64,000 nt of DNA from contig CALHFG010000014.1 of assembly GCA_938029215.1 (NCBI GenBank), positions 1-64,000 on the forward strand, read 5' to 3'. The notes beneath the pieces are model-generated. The model did no database searches. It was not told the DNA's origin and worked only from the letters and a program-made list of their open reading frames with translations. This stretch comes from an uncultured Acidimicrobiales bacterium. Lineage in GTDB: Bacteria > Actinomycetota > Acidimicrobiia > Acidimicrobiales > SZUA-35. Below, one piece after another: positions 45,108 to 52,922 of this stretch. The first letter of the stretch is position 1. Every line of letters begins with the position of its first letter. Made by a program: the position numbers and the translations under genes.

Positions 45108-46046
45108 ATGGACTTTGGTGTTGAACAGACCTCGGACGTGGAGCCCGATATCCGGATGCTGCTCGACAATCCCGGTCCGGTCGGTCCGGACATCTTTACC
45201 GCGAGCCCGGAAGAGATTCGTGCCCACTACCGAACGACCCGCAATCCCAAGGCCATCCCCGAGGTGGCTGAGGTTACCGATCGCACCTTCGAAGGGCCCG
45301 GTGGACCGGTGGCGGTTCGCGTGTACCGGGCCGACACCACCGACCACGCGGCCCCCACGCTGCTGTGGTTTCATGGCGGCGGCTGGGTCGTTGGCGACCT
45401 GTTCACAGCTGAGCTCCCGGCTCGAGCCCTGTGCCGCGACGCACGGTGCACGGTCATCAGCGTCGACTATCGCCTTGCCCCTGAAACCAAATTTCCGGGC
45501 GCCTATGACGACTGTGTCGCGTCGCTCGCATGGGTTCGGCAGAACGCGTCGGAGCTTCAGGTCGACGCGGAGCGGTTGGTGGTCGGGGGTGATAGCGCAG
45601 GCGGTAACCTCGCCGCCGCTGTTACGGTTGCCGACCGCGACACCGGGGGAGATCTGAAAGGTCAGCTGTTGATCTATCCGGTGGTCGAAGCCGAACCCGA
45701 CTGGACGGCTCGAGACACTCGGGGCGAGGACTATTTGCTCGGAGGCGTGGCCATGGACTGGTTCTTTGACCAATACGTTGCGTCGGAGAGCGACCGATCC
45801 GATTGGCGTCTCGCGCCTGCACTAGCGAACCTGGAACGCACCCCTGCGGCCTTCATTCAGACCTGCGGATTCGATCTGCTTGCAGCAGAAGGTCTGCGCT
45901 ATGCCACCAAGTTGCGGACTGCAGGAGTCGACGTGACCGTCGATCATCTTCCCGGCTCCGTCCATGCGTCGTTTGCAATGGAGATCGATGCCGGCGTGCG
46001 CGGTCGTGCCTCGGCGGCCGCCTGGTTGCGCGAGATCTTTAGCTAG
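45108..46046 (+). CDS. Hormone-sensitive-lipase-like alpha/beta hydrolase (esterase)
   Basis: 312 aa. Oxyanion motif WFHGGGWVVG (HGGG), nucleophile elbow VVGGDSAGGNLAAA, acid/His later: TCGFDLLAAEGLRYATKLRT and HLPGSVHASFAM. It is a carboxylester hydrolase of the HSL type, cytoplasmic, no signal peptide. It overlaps the MurD2 gene tail to tail by 8 bp. Confidence 0.92.
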   Translation: MDFGVEQTSDVEPDIRMLLDNPGPVGPDIFTASPEEIRAHYRTTRNPKAIPEVAEVTDRTFEGPGGPVAVRVYRADTTDHAAPTLLWFHGGGWVVGDLFTAELPARALCRDARCTVISVDYRLAPETKFPGAYDDCVASLAWVRQNASELQVDAERLVVGGDSAGGNLAAAVTVADRDTGGDLKGQLLIYPVVEAEPDWTARDTRGEDYLLGGVAMDWFFDQYVASESDRSDWRLAPALANLERTPAAFIQTCGFDLLAAEGLRYATKLRTAGVDVTVDHLPGSVHASFAMEIDAGVRGRASAAAWLREIFS

Positions 46047-47334
46047 AAAGAACCGCAGCTTCAAACGCCGCTGATCGGTTCGACCAGTTCCCGTGCTGAG
46101 GCGGGGTCGGAGCCGCCGGGCTGAACAACACGGTGGAGTGCTGCCGAGCGGCGGTGCGAATGAGTGCTACCGCGCTCTCTACATCCGGCGCGTGGAGTTG
46201 CTGCTCGATCACAACGTCTGCTGCAGTGAGATCTGCCACGAGATCAGCTCCGTTATCTGGAACTGCGACGATCGATACGGATTGCGTGGAAGACCGGAGC
46301 GCTTCTGCCAACGGAGCGGGCGACACTTTGCGGTCGATCCCGCCGAGAATGAGCCAGAGGTGATCGTCGGCGAATGCTGCCACAGCCGCAGCCGCGCCCG
46401 ATGGATTCGAAGCCAGCGAATCGTCGAACCAACGGTGACCGTCTTGGGAGTGGATTTCCCGCAGCCGCCCGACCATCGCGGGAAGATCGAGGAGCGTTTG
46501 CGCCGGGTCGCGTACCACCACGGCGCCAAAATCGGCTTGAAGTCGCTCCGCTGCGGCGAGGGCGAGGCGAGCGTTCGAGGCCATGTGCGCTGGCAGTTCG
46601 CTGAGGCGATCAGGGGTGTCCGGGGTCTCGACGACGAAGGCGTTGGAATGAGCGGACACCAGTCCGTCGAGATCGGCAATTGTTAGAACACGGGAGGCCT
46701 GGTGGATCGCTGCCAGTTTGTCGGCGTGATAGCGCTCCACCGAACCGTGCCAGCTGATGTGGTCCTCACTGAGGCTCGTGAGAATCGCAAGGTCAGCCCG
46801 GTGCGTGAAATCGACGGCCTGGTAGCTACTGACCTCACAGACCATCACGGTCCCTGCTGGCGGAGGTTGCACGGACCAGATTGGCGTGCCAATGTTGCCG
46901 ACCAGTTCGCTGTGGGGAAGGAGTGCGGCCAACATCCGCGCCACCGTGCTCTTGCCCTTGGTGCCGGTGATGATCACGGTCGGGAACCGGTCTCCAAAGG
47001 TAGTGAGCCACAGGTTGATCGCGGTCGTTACCGATTGGATGGGTGTGCCGTCCAGGGCTCGCGCGACATCTTCTCGATACCGCGGAAATCCTGGCGACCG
47101 GACGACAAGTCTGTTCGGCGAAGGGGACTCTGCAACCCAGTTGGAAACCGCGCCGACCGAAGCTCGATAGCGCGCGCATTCCTGGCGTATGTGGTCGGGA
47201 ACGGCGTCGATGTCATCCACCCACACACGAACCTGCGACGCGTCGGTCAGATGGGGGAGCAGAGCCATGTTGTCTATCCCTGCCCCGAGCAGGTCTACGG
47301 AGCGACCAGCGATCAGAGGGTCGAACTCCGTCAT
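46039..47334 (-). CDS. murD2: MurD2-type ligase (UDP-MurNAc-L-Ala : L-Glu)
   Basis: 431 aa. Mur-ligase central domain with ATP loop VIITGTKGKSTVARMLAALL, EVSSYQAVDFTHRADLAILT and SLSEDHISWHGSVERYHADK; N-terminal part has GRSVDLLGAGIDNMALLPHL. It is MurD-like but shorter and lacks other dcw genes nearby. Because it follows a MurL gene, with the start overlapping its stop by 4 bp, it most likely adds L-Glu to UDP-MurNAc-L-Ala, as MurD2 does in Xanthomonas. The usual D-Glu-adding MurD should be elsewhere or absent. Confidence 0.82.
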   Translation of the reverse strand: MTEFDPLIAGRSVDLLGAGIDNMALLPHLTDASQVRVWVDDIDAVPDHIRQECARYRASVGAVSNWVAESPSPNRLVVRSPGFPRYREDVARALDGTPIQSVTTAINLWLTTFGDRFPTVIITGTKGKSTVARMLAALLPHSELVGNIGTPIWSVQPPPAGTVMVCEVSSYQAVDFTHRADLAILTSLSEDHISWHGSVERYHADKLAAIHQASRVLTIADLDGLVSAHSNAFVVETPDTPDRLSELPAHMASNARLALAAAERLQADFGAVVVRDPAQTLLDLPAMVGRLREIHSQDGHRWFDDSLASNPSGAAAAVAAFADDHLWLILGGIDRKVSPAPLAEALRSSTQSVSIVAVPDNGADLVADLTAADVVIEQQLHAPDVESAVALIRTAARQHSTVLFSPAAPTPPQHGNWSNRSAAFEAAVLSS

Positions 47335-48707
47335 CGTGTTGTCCGCTGAGTGGCGTCAAGAAGACGCCGCTGGAACGCCGGCGGCGCCGGGCGAGGTGTA
47401 AGCCCGAGATCGTCCGAACCCAGCTCAGCCCACTTGCCCAACTGCAACGCCGCCTCGGCCGAAGGACGCAGCCGTTTGACCAGCAGGTGATCATCCCAGG
47501 CAGGGTCCGACGAGACCGTCAGCAGTGCGTTCGCTGCGTCGACCCGTTCGCCAACGCACTCGAGCGGCTTGTCCGGGGCCCACAGCCGAGCGAACTCCTG
47601 CTCGAGCTCGTCGGTGTCGAGCAAGTTGGCACCGAAGACCTGCCGCAATCGCTTGGGCTTCAATTCGGTGGCGAGCATGAGATAGGTGAACACGCACTTT
47701 GGGCACTCGCCGCACCATCGCTGGGGGGCTTCGTCGTCCGCTCCAGCGGTTCGCCCGGCGAATGCTCGATTGCAGCTGACCAACACATCGAGCGCTGCGT
47801 CCTGCCCGCTCAGCAGCGAGATGATGTCTGGTTCCTCGACAGTGCGCAACCACGAGAAGTATCGGATGTCGATCCCCGCGGCAGTGATCGCGCGGTCGAA
47901 CAACGCCTCGAACGTTGCGCCCTTCGACCACTGATGGTTGACCGCCCTGCCCGCCGAATTTGAGTGTTGGGAGATGAGCGTCGGCTCGTTTGCGGCCTCT
48001 TCGTTGGCCAGAACAACCGAGGTGAAGTTGTCACGGGCGGCGAGGGCAACCGAGATGGCCGAGACGATAGCGGTGATGGGAATGTGGCCGTTGAGACGGT
48101 CGGGTCGGGTGAGTTCGTCTAGCTGGTCCACTCTTCGGGCAACGGAAATCAACTCGTGCCCCAGCACCTCTGCGACTGCTCTGTGGGTGGAGGTGCCATT
48201 GATAGTGACAGGCCGAGCTTCAGGAAGCAGGCTGAGAACCACGGTTGAATCCTTGCCGCCACCGAAGGGAACCAGCGGGTGTCCGATCGTTGATTCCGTG
48301 GGCGGTTCCTCCTTGCGGGCTCGTGGTCCACCGGCCCACTGAAATGTGGTGACGAGCGGAATCGGCAGCTGGTTGACGTAGGCGAACTCACGAAGTCCGT
48401 GGTCGAACAGCTCGGTGACGAGAGCCCGTTCCTCTTCGGAGGTGGCGACCTCAACGATCACCGTCTGGGGAGCCTGGGATTTGTAGTACGACGTTCCGGC
48501 TACCAATAACAGTAGGTTGACCGCAGCATCGAAGGCGGCTGATTGCTGAGCGGCGTCGGCTGGCGGTAGTTGGATTCGTTCGGTGAACCAGGGCCCTTCG
48601 GAGAACCCGTAGTGCAATTCGATTAGGCCGGTCTGGGCGTTGCTCGTTGCTGAGCGAATGTGGAACGGACTCGAGCCCTGTTTCATCGTCCCCGCGGCGT
48701 CGGTCAC
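47331..48707 (-). CDS. murL: MurL-type UDP-MurNAc-L-Ala-L-Glu epimerase
   Basis: 458 aa, GTG start. Motifs of the MurL family: TSYYKSQAP (the YK site), VPFGGGKDSTVVLSLL near 147 (PP-loop-like, ATP binding), FSWLRTVEEPDI, SCNRAF and RWCGECPKCVFTYLMLA near 332. MurL epimerises the terminal L-Glu of UDP-MurNAc-L-Ala-L-Glu to D-Glu in an ATP-dependent reaction, replacing glutamate racemase. It is upstream of and coupled to murD2. A TAGACT -10 box is 6 nt before the GTG. Confidence 0.87.
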   Translation of the reverse strand: MTDAAGTMKQGSSPFHIRSATSNAQTGLIELHYGFSEGPWFTERIQLPPADAAQQSAAFDAAVNLLLLVAGTSYYKSQAPQTVIVEVATSEEERALVTELFDHGLREFAYVNQLPIPLVTTFQWAGGPRARKEEPPTESTIGHPLVPFGGGKDSTVVLSLLPEARPVTINGTSTHRAVAEVLGHELISVARRVDQLDELTRPDRLNGHIPITAIVSAISVALAARDNFTSVVLANEEAANEPTLISQHSNSAGRAVNHQWSKGATFEALFDRAITAAGIDIRYFSWLRTVEEPDIISLLSGQDAALDVLVSCNRAFAGRTAGADDEAPQRWCGECPKCVFTYLMLATELKPKRLRQVFGANLLDTDELEQEFARLWAPDKPLECVGERVDAANALLTVSSDPAWDDHLLVKRLRPSAEAALQLGKWAELGSDDLGLTPRPAPPAFQRRLLDATQRTTR

Positions 48708-48775: not shown

Positions 48776-48782
48776 CTCCACG

Positions 48783-49976
48783 ATGTTGGAGCCCGAAGAG
48801 CAAGCTGAGCACTGGCGGGATGCCGGCGCGCTCGAGGACAGCTACGACGTCGTGATTGTTGGCGGTGGTCTCCCAGGCGTCGCGCTGGCGTACTACCTGG
48901 CGACTTCGCACTCGGTCAGTAACGTCGCGGTTTTGGCGAAGGGATCGCTCTTCGGCCCGCCGAACGCGTCGCCGTACGCCCTCGTGTCGCCTCAGCCGTG
49001 GTGGCCCTTCGGGGCCGAATTTGGGCTGCGTAGCAGTCCGCTGTTCGAGCAACTGCAAGCCGAGACCGACGGTCCAGAGCTGTTGACCGAACGGGACCGG
49101 GTGGTGATAGCTCGAAACAACGACGAGCTGAATTCGTGTCGCTGGCGCACCGAGCTGTCCAAAGCCCATGGAACGGACGCTCCAATAATCGACGCCACCG
49201 CGGTGCAGAAACTGCTCCCCGGCGCGGGGAACGCCAACACCCCTTCCATCGTGGGTGGTCAAGTGATTCCGCGAGGCGGTGTCTTGCGGGTCGATCGGGC
49301 GATCGCTGCCTATGCGTCCGGAGCGCACGAGGCCGGTGTCCGACTGGCCGAGGGCACCCCGGTCGTCGATGTGGAGGTTGAGAACGGGCGGGTTCGTGGC
49401 ATCCGGACAACAGCTGGATTGGTGAGAGCGCCGGTGGTAGTCGTCTGTGCGCCCGGATCATCGTCGCTGGTAGCGCAGATGGCCGGGGTCGCGTTGCCGT
49501 TGCTGACGCGTCGACACGAATCGATGCTCACCGAATCCACCGACGTCGACATCGAGGTGGTCGCCGGATTCGAATCGGACGACATCGTGGTCGCACCGGT
49601 CGATCAGGGCAGAACGCTCGTGACCGGTGTGACGTCCCATTTCGGGACCTACTCCTCCGAGCCTTCGCTAGACGCTCTTGACCGGCTGGCCACGGGAGCC
49701 CTCGCTGTACTCCCCGACTTGGCCGGTACGCGGCTGCACCGCCACTTTCGCTGCTTGATCGATACGACCGCCGACGGTCGCCCGCTGATCGGTACGACCA
49801 CAGTCGAAGGGGTGCTGGCAAATGTGGGATGGGGTGCTGACGGAACCGAACTGCTTCCGGCCGTCGTGAGTGAACTGGCAGCCTCGATTGCACGCAACGA
49901 GCTATCGCCCTTGCTCGATTCGTTGTTGCCGAGTCGTTTCGATCTCGCTCGCCCCCATCGATTGGCTGCCTCGTGA
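48783..49976 (+). CDS. soxB: Sarcosine-oxidase beta-subunit-like FAD oxidoreductase, divergent
   Basis: 397 aa. Dinucleotide motif YDVVIVGGGLPGVALAYYLA and VSNVAVLAKGSLFG follow the SoxB plan, and the C-terminus has DTTADGRPLIGTT. Two changes: the FAD-side loop normally NTGRN is ASPYALVSPQ, and the segment that carries the covalent-FMN His in heterotetrameric enzymes (RHDAVxWxYA) is RVDRAIAAYA, with Val for His. Family enzymes oxidise N-methyl groups of sarcosine. Stop overlaps the next GTG (GTGA). Substrate is uncertain. Confidence 0.8.
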   Translation: MLEPEEQAEHWRDAGALEDSYDVVIVGGGLPGVALAYYLATSHSVSNVAVLAKGSLFGPPNASPYALVSPQPWWPFGAEFGLRSSPLFEQLQAETDGPELLTERDRVVIARNNDELNSCRWRTELSKAHGTDAPIIDATAVQKLLPGAGNANTPSIVGGQVIPRGGVLRVDRAIAAYASGAHEAGVRLAEGTPVVDVEVENGRVRGIRTTAGLVRAPVVVVCAPGSSSLVAQMAGVALPLLTRRHESMLTESTDVDIEVVAGFESDDIVVAPVDQGRTLVTGVTSHFGTYSSEPSLDALDRLATGALAVLPDLAGTRLHRHFRCLIDTTADGRPLIGTTTVEGVLANVGWGADGTELLPAVVSELAASIARNELSPLLDSLLPSRFDLARPHRLAAS

Positions 49977-52366
49977 GTACGCCAGCGCCTCGTCGGCTTC
50001 CGGTTCAACCGGGTGAACTGATCGATCGGACGGTCCCGGTGAGCTTCCGCCTCGACCGGACGCCCATGACCGGATTCGAGGGTGACTCCATCGTCTCGGC
50101 CGTGAGCGCAAACGGAAAGAGATCGGTATCGAAAGCTGGCGGATTCTTCAGCGACGATGTCTGGGACCCAAGGTGTCTCGTCAGAGTCGATGGTGAGCCC
50201 AATGTGCGAGCGGGCCACCGGCGAGTGGTTGAGGGCATGGTGGTCGATTCCCTGCCACGAGCCCAGCCCGGCGGGCGACTCCCTCAAACCCTGGTTCGGC
50301 TCCAGGACCGAATTGGCAGGGGAGTTGCGGCCGATTCGATCCATCCGGTCAGGGTTGGTCGCCAAACGGTTCACGTTGACGTTCTTATTCGGGGCGGCGG
50401 CCCAGCGGGCCTTGCCGCAGCGGTTGCGGCCGTCCGCGAAGGAGCGCGGGTTCAGGTGGTTGATCATCGCCACTACCTGGGCGGCCACCTCCGTTGGGGT
50501 GACGATTCCGATCGAGCTCTCGCCCAGGAACTCGAAGCCGCCGTTCGAGCCCAACCCGATATAGCGGTTTTGCTTGGAGCGTCGGTCGTCGGTCCCCTCG
50601 AAGACGGATGGGCCTTGGTGAGCCAGCAGCAGGTGGACGGGTTTGACGACTATCTCTGGGCGTATCGCGCCGGGTCCTACGTGGAGTCGGCCGATCTTCG
50701 AATCGCGTCACCGAGGTTCGAAGGTGGCGATGAGGCCGGAGTCATGTCCGCCGAAGCGGTGCGCCGGCTGATCAACCTGTATGCGGTATTGCCGGGGGAT
50801 CGAGCCGTTCTCGTGGGTGGAACGAGCGAGGCCGATGCTGCCCGAGCGGACATGGAACGCGTTGGCATCGATGTGGTTCAGGCGCTCGACCCGCGGGAGG
50901 ATCCGCGGTCGATCGAATCGGTCTCGAAGTCAAGAAAGTCGCTCCAGGTGAAGCTGTCCGATGGATCTTCCGTCGACGCTGATCTTGTTGTTGTGGGCAA
51001 AGAGTGGACCCATTGGGCCGAGCCGGAATCGAACAGCGCCCTCTTGACGGGCCGGGCAGTCGTAGGGGTCCCTCGCCGTGGGGATCGGCAACACGAGTCG
51101 TTGGTAGCACACGGCGTCGCTACCGGGAGGCTGGCCGCACGACGAGCTATCGCTCAACGCCAGCGTGAGAACCGGCTCACGCCCGGTTCGCAAACCTCCG
51201 CGGAACAAGGGGTCACTTGGCCGACCGATACTCGGCCATTCCGCAAAGCCGTCGACCTGGGACCAACCGAGTCGGGGCTCGGCGTTGCGCCAACGTTGGG
51301 AGCACTTGCCGGAGCTGGCAGTCAAGGATCGTGCGGTCGTCCGCGCCATGAGAGCGCCGTTCAACCTTGGCTCGAGAACAACGGGGCGGTTCAGACCGTC
51401 GTCGCGGGCCGGGTGAGGACCGAGCACTTTGGCGATCCGCTCGACGAGGTTCGTAAGGCGCGATCTGGAGTCGGCGTCCACACGGTGGAGTCGAACGCGA
51501 TCCTCTTGCTCAGCGGCCGCAGCGCCGGCGCGCTCCTTGGGTCGTTGGCCAAAGACTGGGCGGATCTCAAGCTCGGCCAGTTGCGAGTTGGCGAAATTCG
51601 TGCCCTCGGCTCGTCGGCCCTTCGGGGGTTTGCCGGGGCGCTGACTAATGAGTCCTTCGTTCTCACGGTGCCGACCGAGTTCGAATCGTTAGCCGTTCAG
51701 GTCGGACGTCGCTGGATCGCCCGCCACGACCCCGCCGGTGATACTTCGATCCACCCGATGACGGCGGGCTACACCGGAATCCGGGTGAGCGGCCCGAACG
51801 CACTGGACCTTGTCAGTCGTCTGAGCGATGGAATTGTCACCGATTTTCCACCTGGGCGTCTGGAGCGACTGTGGTTGGCTGGTGCGGCAGATTGCCTTGT
51901 CATGCGCCCGGCTATCGGGATCGATCCGTTCCTCGAGCTGTATGTGCCAGCAGGTTTCGGAAGGCATGTGTGGGAGATGATGTTTGAGCTTTCGACCGGC
52001 GAGTGCATTACTCCTGTGGGCTCGAGAGCCGATCGAATTCTTCAGTTGGAGACGGGTCAACTGTGGGTGCCGGTTGGTAGCGACTCCCCGTGGAGCGGGT
52101 CGACCGTAGTGGAGCTAGAGACGGAGGATCCTTCCCTCGTACCCCAAGAATCGTGCCGAATTGTCTCGGGTGAGGGAGTTCAAACCCTCGGGAGGGTGTT
52201 GGTGGCCGAGTTCTGCCCGTCCATCAAGAGATCGCTCTGTCTCGCAGAGATTGCACCGCAGCCCGCTGGCGCCGTTGAATCGTTGATGGTGGTCAATCCC
52301 GACGGTGAGCGGATCAGCGTCCGCGCTCGAACGAAACCCCTCCAACCGGTGGTGGCAGATGTTTGA
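49973..52366 (+). CDS. soxA: Sarcosine-oxidase alpha-subunit-like protein
   Basis: 797 aa, GTG start, shorter than typical SoxA (about 950-1000 aa). Residues 20-100 correspond to the N-terminal ferredoxin-like NAD region (FEGDSIVSAVSANGKRSVSK) without its Cys. Residues 135-400 are an NAD/FAD-binding oxidoreductase unit (LIRGGGPAGLAAAVAAVREG, VVDHRHYLGGHLRW). From about 430 comes the GcvT/aminomethyltransferase part (APTLGALAG, ENNGAVQT, TAGYTGIRVSGPNALDL, ITPVGSRA). The last part would pass formaldehyde to tetrahydrofolate. I checked for a frameshift at the junction near 51300 and found the frame intact. Confidence 0.8.
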   Translation: MSTPAPRRLPVQPGELIDRTVPVSFRLDRTPMTGFEGDSIVSAVSANGKRSVSKAGGFFSDDVWDPRCLVRVDGEPNVRAGHRRVVEGMVVDSLPRAQPGGRLPQTLVRLQDRIGRGVAADSIHPVRVGRQTVHVDVLIRGGGPAGLAAAVAAVREGARVQVVDHRHYLGGHLRWGDDSDRALAQELEAAVRAQPDIAVLLGASVVGPLEDGWALVSQQQVDGFDDYLWAYRAGSYVESADLRIASPRFEGGDEAGVMSAEAVRRLINLYAVLPGDRAVLVGGTSEADAARADMERVGIDVVQALDPREDPRSIESVSKSRKSLQVKLSDGSSVDADLVVVGKEWTHWAEPESNSALLTGRAVVGVPRRGDRQHESLVAHGVATGRLAARRAIAQRQRENRLTPGSQTSAEQGVTWPTDTRPFRKAVDLGPTESGLGVAPTLGALAGAGSQGSCGRPRHESAVQPWLENNGAVQTVVAGRVRTEHFGDPLDEVRKARSGVGVHTVESNAILLLSGRSAGALLGSLAKDWADLKLGQLRVGEIRALGSSALRGFAGALTNESFVLTVPTEFESLAVQVGRRWIARHDPAGDTSIHPMTAGYTGIRVSGPNALDLVSRLSDGIVTDFPPGRLERLWLAGAADCLVMRPAIGIDPFLELYVPAGFGRHVWEMMFELSTGECITPVGSRADRILQLETGQLWVPVGSDSPWSGSTVVELETEDPSLVPQESCRIVSGEGVQTLGRVLVAEFCPSIKRSLCLAEIAPQPAGAVESLMVVNPDGERISVRARTKPLQPVVADV

Positions 52367-52922
52367 GGTCGCGCAGCCAGCTTCACCTTTTGGCGCTATG
52401 CCAGAGGGACCGGATTCGGTCGAAATCGAGGATGCGTCATCACTCACCATGGTGCTGTTGCGCGGCGCGAAGACGTCCAACGTGGCGGTTCAGCTCTCCG
52501 GGGTCGGCCTTGGCCAGACCGTCATGCGCGGTCCTGTTCTGATCGCACGTGCCACGTTGTCCGAATGGCTCTATTTCGGCACAGCCGATGACGTCGCCCA
52601 TGCGATTGCCGAGCTCGATCTCGCCGGGCCCACTTCGATCGTGGATCTCTCCCACGCCCGAGCTCGGTTGCGGCTGACAGGGCCGGGAGCCGCGTCATGG
52701 CTTCAGCAGCGGTCGGCAATCGATTTCGACAACGACTCGTTTCCGAACCAGCGGGTCACCGTGGTCCAGATCGCCACTGTGCGATGCGAGGTCATACGAG
52801 CGGACCAGGGCTCTCAGCGATCGTTCATCGTTGCTTTCGACCGCACCTTGGCGCGATGGATGATTGACTTAGCCGGCAGCGCGAGCCCGGGTGAGCCAGC
52901 GATCCACGTCGGTGCGATGTGA
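52359..52922 (+). CDS. soxG: Sarcosine-oxidase gamma-subunit-like protein
   Basis: 187 aa, ATG overlapping the end of the soxA-like gene by 8 bp. GcvT-N-type fold with IVDLSHARARLRLTGPGAAS, LQQRSAIDFDNDSFPNQRVT and a C-terminal AFDRTLARWMIDLAGSA. SoxG stabilises the heterotetramer. Its last 54 bp overlap the converging betaine-type binding protein gene. No soxD lies in the operon. Confidence 0.78.
   Translation: MFEVAQPASPFGAMPEGPDSVEIEDASSLTMVLLRGAKTSNVAVQLSGVGLGQTVMRGPVLIARATLSEWLYFGTADDVAHAIAELDLAGPTSIVDLSHARARLRLTGPGAASWLQQRSAIDFDNDSFPNQRVTVVQIATVRCEVIRADQGSQRSFIVAFDRTLARWMIDLAGSASPGEPAIHVGAM

Follow-up and report, generated by a model that had tools for sequence, protein, structure and literature searches.

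How does the organism behind this locus supply D-glutamate (D-Glu) to its peptidoglycan, and by what chemistry? The locus lies in a window of 64,000 nucleotides (nt), the whole stretch of DNA analysed, from contig CALHFG010000014.1 of the assembly GCA_938029215.1 of an uncultured Acidimicrobiales bacterium. On its minus strand, to which all coordinates below refer unless otherwise said, the window carries murL (47331..48707), encoding a protein of 458 amino acids (aa), and directly downstream murD2 (46039..47334), encoding a MurD-type ligase of 431 aa. We conclude that this pair is very probably the organism's only D-Glu route for peptidoglycan, and that MurL most likely acts as an ATP pyrophosphatase of the PP-loop type with a QueC/QatC fold. 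The pair is a further member of the known, uncommon MurL-MurD2 pathway, characterised for MurL (XOO_1319) and MurD2 (XOO_1320) of Xanthomonas oryzae and, by in vitro assay, for orthologues from Micromonospora and Salinispora; the published list of hosts does not include the class Acidimicrobiia (PMC8788868). In the proposed sequence of events, MurD2 would add L-Glu, which MurL would then flip to D-Glu.

Identity of the two proteins

Both open reading frames of an earlier note on this DNA were located in the window, and its naming of the upstream gene as murL held. The encoded protein matches the NCBIfam model NF041275 over residues 12-420 (E 2.9e-81, 273 bits) and contains all three motifs that the note had picked out: SYYK (residues 73-76, 48480..48491), GGGKDS (residues 149-154, 48246..48263) and CGECPKC (residues 332-338, 47694..47714). 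When the window protein was aligned with 59 others from Xanthomonadales, Micromonosporaceae and other groups (n=60), S73, Y74 and K76 proved invariant, as did GGGKDS, for which the scan pattern had in part selected. Like the Xanthomonas enzyme, the window MurL is full-length with all invariant residues, at approximately 37-40% identity to Xanthomonadales MurLs. The 700-bit cut-off of NF041275 was set for Xanthomonadales; none of 296 genomes of the phylum reaches it and every actinobacterial MurL seen falls below, which means that annotation by this model alone will overlook actinobacterial MurLs.

The downstream protein matches the MurD model TIGR01087 (E 1.7e-53, 182 bits, under the 212-bit cut-off). 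It is, as the earlier note had it, a Mur ligase with an intact P-loop, GTKGKST at residues 124-130 (46945..46965), accompanied by the invariant Mur-ligase residues. Its predicted structure (predicted local distance difference test, pLDDT, 92.9) matches Escherichia coli MurD with a Z score of 38 over 401 residues. The two proteins share the three-domain fold and the metal, ATP and carbamylated-lysine residues, and equivalents of E. coli N138, E157, H183, K198 and D317 are all present, at 24% sequence identity.

Loss of murI and of the canonical murD

The earlier note made the organism's dependence on the pair conditional on the lack of murI. In the source assembly (3.94 Mb, 144 contigs, 94.6% complete), a genome search found neither the glutamate racemase MurI nor any protein of the broader Asp/Glu racemase family PF01177, so that condition holds as far as the assembly reaches. 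The second murD for which the note advised a search is also missing from the assembly. The window gene encodes the only full-length MurD-like protein; of three weaker matches elsewhere, one is MurE, one MurC and one a MurF-type ligase, the last called by reading the sequence without a profile.

The division and cell wall (dcw) cluster lies on contig 56 and carries, in this order, rsmH, ftsL, ftsI, murE, mraY, ftsW, murG, murC, murB, ftsQ and ftsZ, identified by profile or by sequence reading. At the normal place of murD in this cluster, mraY overlaps ftsW directly by 4 bases; as this junction is inside an assembled cluster, murD has been lost and not merely left unassembled. MurE scores above the cut-off of the model for ligases that add diaminopimelate, and with such a MurE the wall should still require a D-Glu residue.

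Ligase residues that accompany MurL

Four positions were reported to distinguish the two ligase types: E. coli MurD has Asp182, Lys348, Ala414 and Leu416 where X. oryzae MurD2 has Glu, Arg, Pro and Phe, respectively. E197D combined with R358K switched the Xanthomonas MurD2 to D-Glu, and E. coli MurD became able to accept L-Glu through K319T (PMC8788868). We tabulated such residues, in crystallographic numbering, for 92 MurL-linked ligases, 26 canonical acidimicrobial MurDs (26 of 30 loci, four being left out) and E. coli MurD. Among these ligases, which are related so that the counts describe non-independent events, position 319 is Ile or Leu in 92/92 MurL-linked proteins and Lys in 26/26 canonical MurDs, and position 348 is Arg in 91/92 of the former and Lys in 25/26 of the latter. 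Every tabulated ligase from Xanthomonadales (n=17) and Micromonosporaceae (n=15) has Glu at position 182. Acidimicrobial-type MurL-linked ligases have Asp there in 23 of 24 cases, and Glu197 was accordingly dropped as a mark of all MurD2s.

The window ligase carries Asp182, Leu319, Arg348, Pro414 and Pro416 in E. coli numbering. In its own numbering, the first four are Asp191 (46762..46764; Glu in Xanthomonas MurD2), Leu307 (46414..46416; Lys319 in E. coli), Arg335 (46330..46332; Xanthomonas Arg358) and Pro409 (46108..46110; Xanthomonas Pro433). The locus therefore resembles that of Xanthomonas in its adjacent L-Glu-type ligase with the Arg358 and Pro433 equivalents and in the lack of murI. 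Unlike X. oryzae MurD2, the window ligase has Asp at the Glu197 position and Pro at Phe435; at the Lys319 position it has Leu, compared with Ile in the ligases of Xanthomonadales. From E. coli MurD it departs by Lys319 to Leu, Lys348 to Arg and Ala414 to Pro, as well as by its location outside dcw. This is the pattern of MurL-linked ligases and not of MurD, in agreement with the earlier assignment to the MurD2 type, and it suggests that the window ligase is specific for L-Glu. Two MurDs of family f15, from genomes without MurI and MurL, keep Lys319; the change at this position therefore tracks the presence of MurL rather than the absence of MurI.

The same residues bear on an improbable alternative: the window ligase would be a normal MurD that adds D-Glu and has moved out of dcw, a D-amino-acid aminotransferase would supply the D-Glu, and MurL would be redundant or have another role. 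Asp182 is retained as in canonical MurD, which would fit this account, and one of the three class IV aminotransferases in the genome, the Aminotran_4 protein L025 (the others being IlvE and a PabB-PabC-like fusion), reaches 113 bits against the model for D-amino-acid transaminases. That score is far under the 277-bit cut-off, however, and L025 scores higher, at 210 bits, as a branched-chain aminotransferase, the type it is best called, if not with certainty. The Leu at position 319, the Lys kept by the f15 enzymes and the linkage of MurL to a MurD-like ligase, directly downstream of it in each of the 14 class members with MurL, likewise argue against an ordinary MurD.

Distribution of MurL across genomes

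Among 148 genomes of the class Acidimicrobiia, MurL occurs in 14 and a clear MurI in 89, and the two are never found together (Fisher p 9e-7, uncorrected for kinship, with MurL in four families). A MurI match in genome G141 is weak (E 4e-7), partial and under the cut-off. Across the phylum, MurL was found in 18 of 296 genomes. More than 580 MurL relatives emerged from a scan of GTDB genomes, and the best 80 belong to Acidimicrobiia, Micromonosporaceae, Solirubrobacteraceae, Mycolicibacterium, Xanthomonadales, Alphaproteobacteria, Peregrinibacteria and others. In this second collection, MurI exceeded its cut-off in none of the 25 MurL-positive genomes checked. In one genome (G009:C24:13459-15993; L010 1354-2682 and downstream), MurL and MurD2 are fused in a single open frame of 861 aa, an independent sign that the two act jointly.

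It is highly improbable that murI and a canonical murD are real but absent from the draft, even though its completeness and fragmentation leave room for gaps: murD is gone from within an assembled cluster, and MurI is lacking in 14/14 MurL genomes of the class and in all 25 named ones. Least probable is that the pair serves a specialised peptide, such as a natural product or an accessory wall peptide; it does lie outside dcw and adjoins unrelated genes, but no other MurD is left for the main wall, its flanks showed no biosynthetic-cluster genes, and in the actinobacterium G220 (L028 156-3818) the pair is within the dcw cluster, in the order murF, mraY, murL, murD2, where it fills the murD slot.

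A tree of MurL proteins places that of the window among metagenome-assembled genomes of Acidimicrobiales, at 59-64% identity. The clade to which it belongs is supported and has 15 members, most of them acidimicrobial, with the isolate Aciditerrimonas ferrireducens among them. With its nearest named relatives in Acidimicrobiales, the MurL supports the note's guess of a probable acidimicrobial actinobacterium. Family f5 (L008-L009, L011-L014, L016-L020), the other large acidimicrobial MurL set, forms a separate clade with GGG[IL]DS instead of GGGKDS. Its MurLs still adjoin MurD2 in genomes without MurI, and to judge from their sequences the PP-loop lysine appears dispensable or replaced in this family.

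Two further groups were observed. Mycolicibacterium frederiksbergense and M. bacteremicum (L106, L110) have MurL, a ligase with the Lys319-to-Leu change and no MurI, and these mycobacteria seem to have gone over to the L-Glu route. Family f15 (L157-L160), with genomes of approximately 1 Mb, has neither MurI over the cut-off nor MurL and encodes a canonical short MurD (NDSKSTN); its weak MurI matches are a 230-aa Asp/Glu-racemase-like protein.

Predicted fold and mechanism of MurL

The mechanism of MurL has been called unclear for want of known conserved domains (PMC5808125). A Pfam search of the window MurL assigned no family, PADLOC gave no match, and phmmer against the PDB found no relative. 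A profile search matched the PP-loop of TtuA (E 9e-4), PP-loop segments being all that it found, and the PDB copy searched thus yielded no structure of a MurL. The structure predicted with the 60-MurL alignment (mean pLDDT 93.5; predicted template-modelling score 0.94) has QatC, from the anti-phage defence system qatABCD, as its best structural match (Z 19.1, 3.3 A over 311 residues), followed by QueC, the 7-cyano-7-deazaguanine (preQ0) synthase (Z 13), and other PP-loop enzymes. The likeness to QatC spans the core of that protein plus N- and C-terminal extensions, and GGGKDS, the predicted ATP pyrophosphate-binding loop, stands at the first strand of the PP-loop domain.

A putative zinc site points the same way. 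Its four predicted ligands are Cys312 (47772..47774), which hhalign aligned to the E. coli QueC zinc motif, and Cys332, Cys335 and Cys338 of CGECPKC, all invariant. Their spacing in the window protein, C-x19-C-x2-C-x2-C, equals that of the QatC zinc site C334/C354/C357/C360 (PMC13279940); across MurLs the first gap ranges from 12 to 19 residues. In the model, MurL thus combines the PP-loop Rossmann-like ATPase fold with the SGGxDS and Cys4 motifs of the QueC/QatC superfamily, with Gly for the first Ser. The PP-loop GG.DS is common to MurL, QatC and QueC. Identity to QatC and QueC is 10-18%, and the MurL PP-loop differs by starting with Gly. The QueC substrate motifs VPxRN and YPDC (PMC13329287) are absent from the window MurL sequence, and the MurL substrate is a UDP-linked dipeptide, not carboxy-deazaguanine.

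Other MurL members use ATP, form AMP and epimerise L to D in one direction (PMC8788868), and adenylation of the alpha-carboxylate was proposed by the authors who described MurL (PMC5808125, PMC8788868). QueC carries out an ATP-driven conversion of a carboxylate substrate (PMC13329287). The QueC/QatC fold would give the adenylation mechanism of the literature a structural basis. MurL would adenylate the alpha-carboxylate of the terminal L-Glu with release of pyrophosphate; the mixed anhydride would acidify the alpha-proton, allowing the centre to invert in a presumed acid/base step; and hydrolysis would free AMP, making the reaction one-way. On balance, we favour the broader view that MurL is an unrecognised branch of QueC/QatC, a zinc-containing, carboxylate-adenylating, one-way peptide epimerase, and that its partner ligase is L-Glu-specific chiefly through the loss of Lys319, with Glu197 no more than an extra in some lineages.

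Several observations weigh against the proposed role and fold. Single absences from a draft in 144 contigs are no proof, and with L025 not surely classified a D-Glu source besides MurI is conceivable. The window ligase keeps Asp at the Glu197 position, where E197D changed the stereospecificity of Xanthomonas MurD2 (PMC8788868), and its assignment therefore rests on its working like MurD2. From sequence, the MurL-QueC link is weak: hhalign registered the motifs correctly, with E 0.0024 for the cysteine motif and 0.012 for the PP-loop (SGGxDS), at a probability of 4-12% and E of 0.002-0.012 overall, and Pfam QueC matched one of the 60 MurLs (E 0.07).

What is new in this analysis is the MurL model with the QatC/QueC PP-loop ATPase fold and the Lys319 signature. 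Epimerases are nowhere mentioned in two QueC-family papers of 2026 (PMC13329287, PMC13279940), and MurL and QueC were named together in no publication found by a search of literature outside subscription, to which any priority for the predicted link is limited. Both features are testable and of wider interest: the fold offers a concrete explanation for an epimerase of unclear mechanism, and Lys319 to Ile or Leu provides a simple sequence test for L-Glu ligases. With two or more distinct MurL lineages, the Acidimicrobiia join the bacteria that build walls without MurI or canonical MurD, and inhibitors of these two enzymes are therefore expected to miss them.

Layout and neighbourhood of the pair

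The two genes overlap by the ATGA (47331..47334) that the earlier note had described, with the MurL stop TGA at 47333-47331 and the MurD2 start ATG at 47334-47332; in most Micromonosporaceae seen, by contrast, the genes are divergent. Translational coupling of murL and murD2 through this overlap is likely. A shared promoter, which the note had also claimed, is likely from the overlap, although a promoter scan gave no sigma-70-type site. Outside the dcw cluster, the pair stands beside unrelated genes, an esterase and a sarcosine-oxidase-like operon. The latter is divergent from murL (48777-52922) and comprises a DAO protein, a 2Fe-2S/FAD/GCV_T protein and a small subunit; next comes a binding protein of the glycine-betaine type. 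The adjoining DAO-type oxidoreductase and esterase are partly common to the loci of the nearest relatives.
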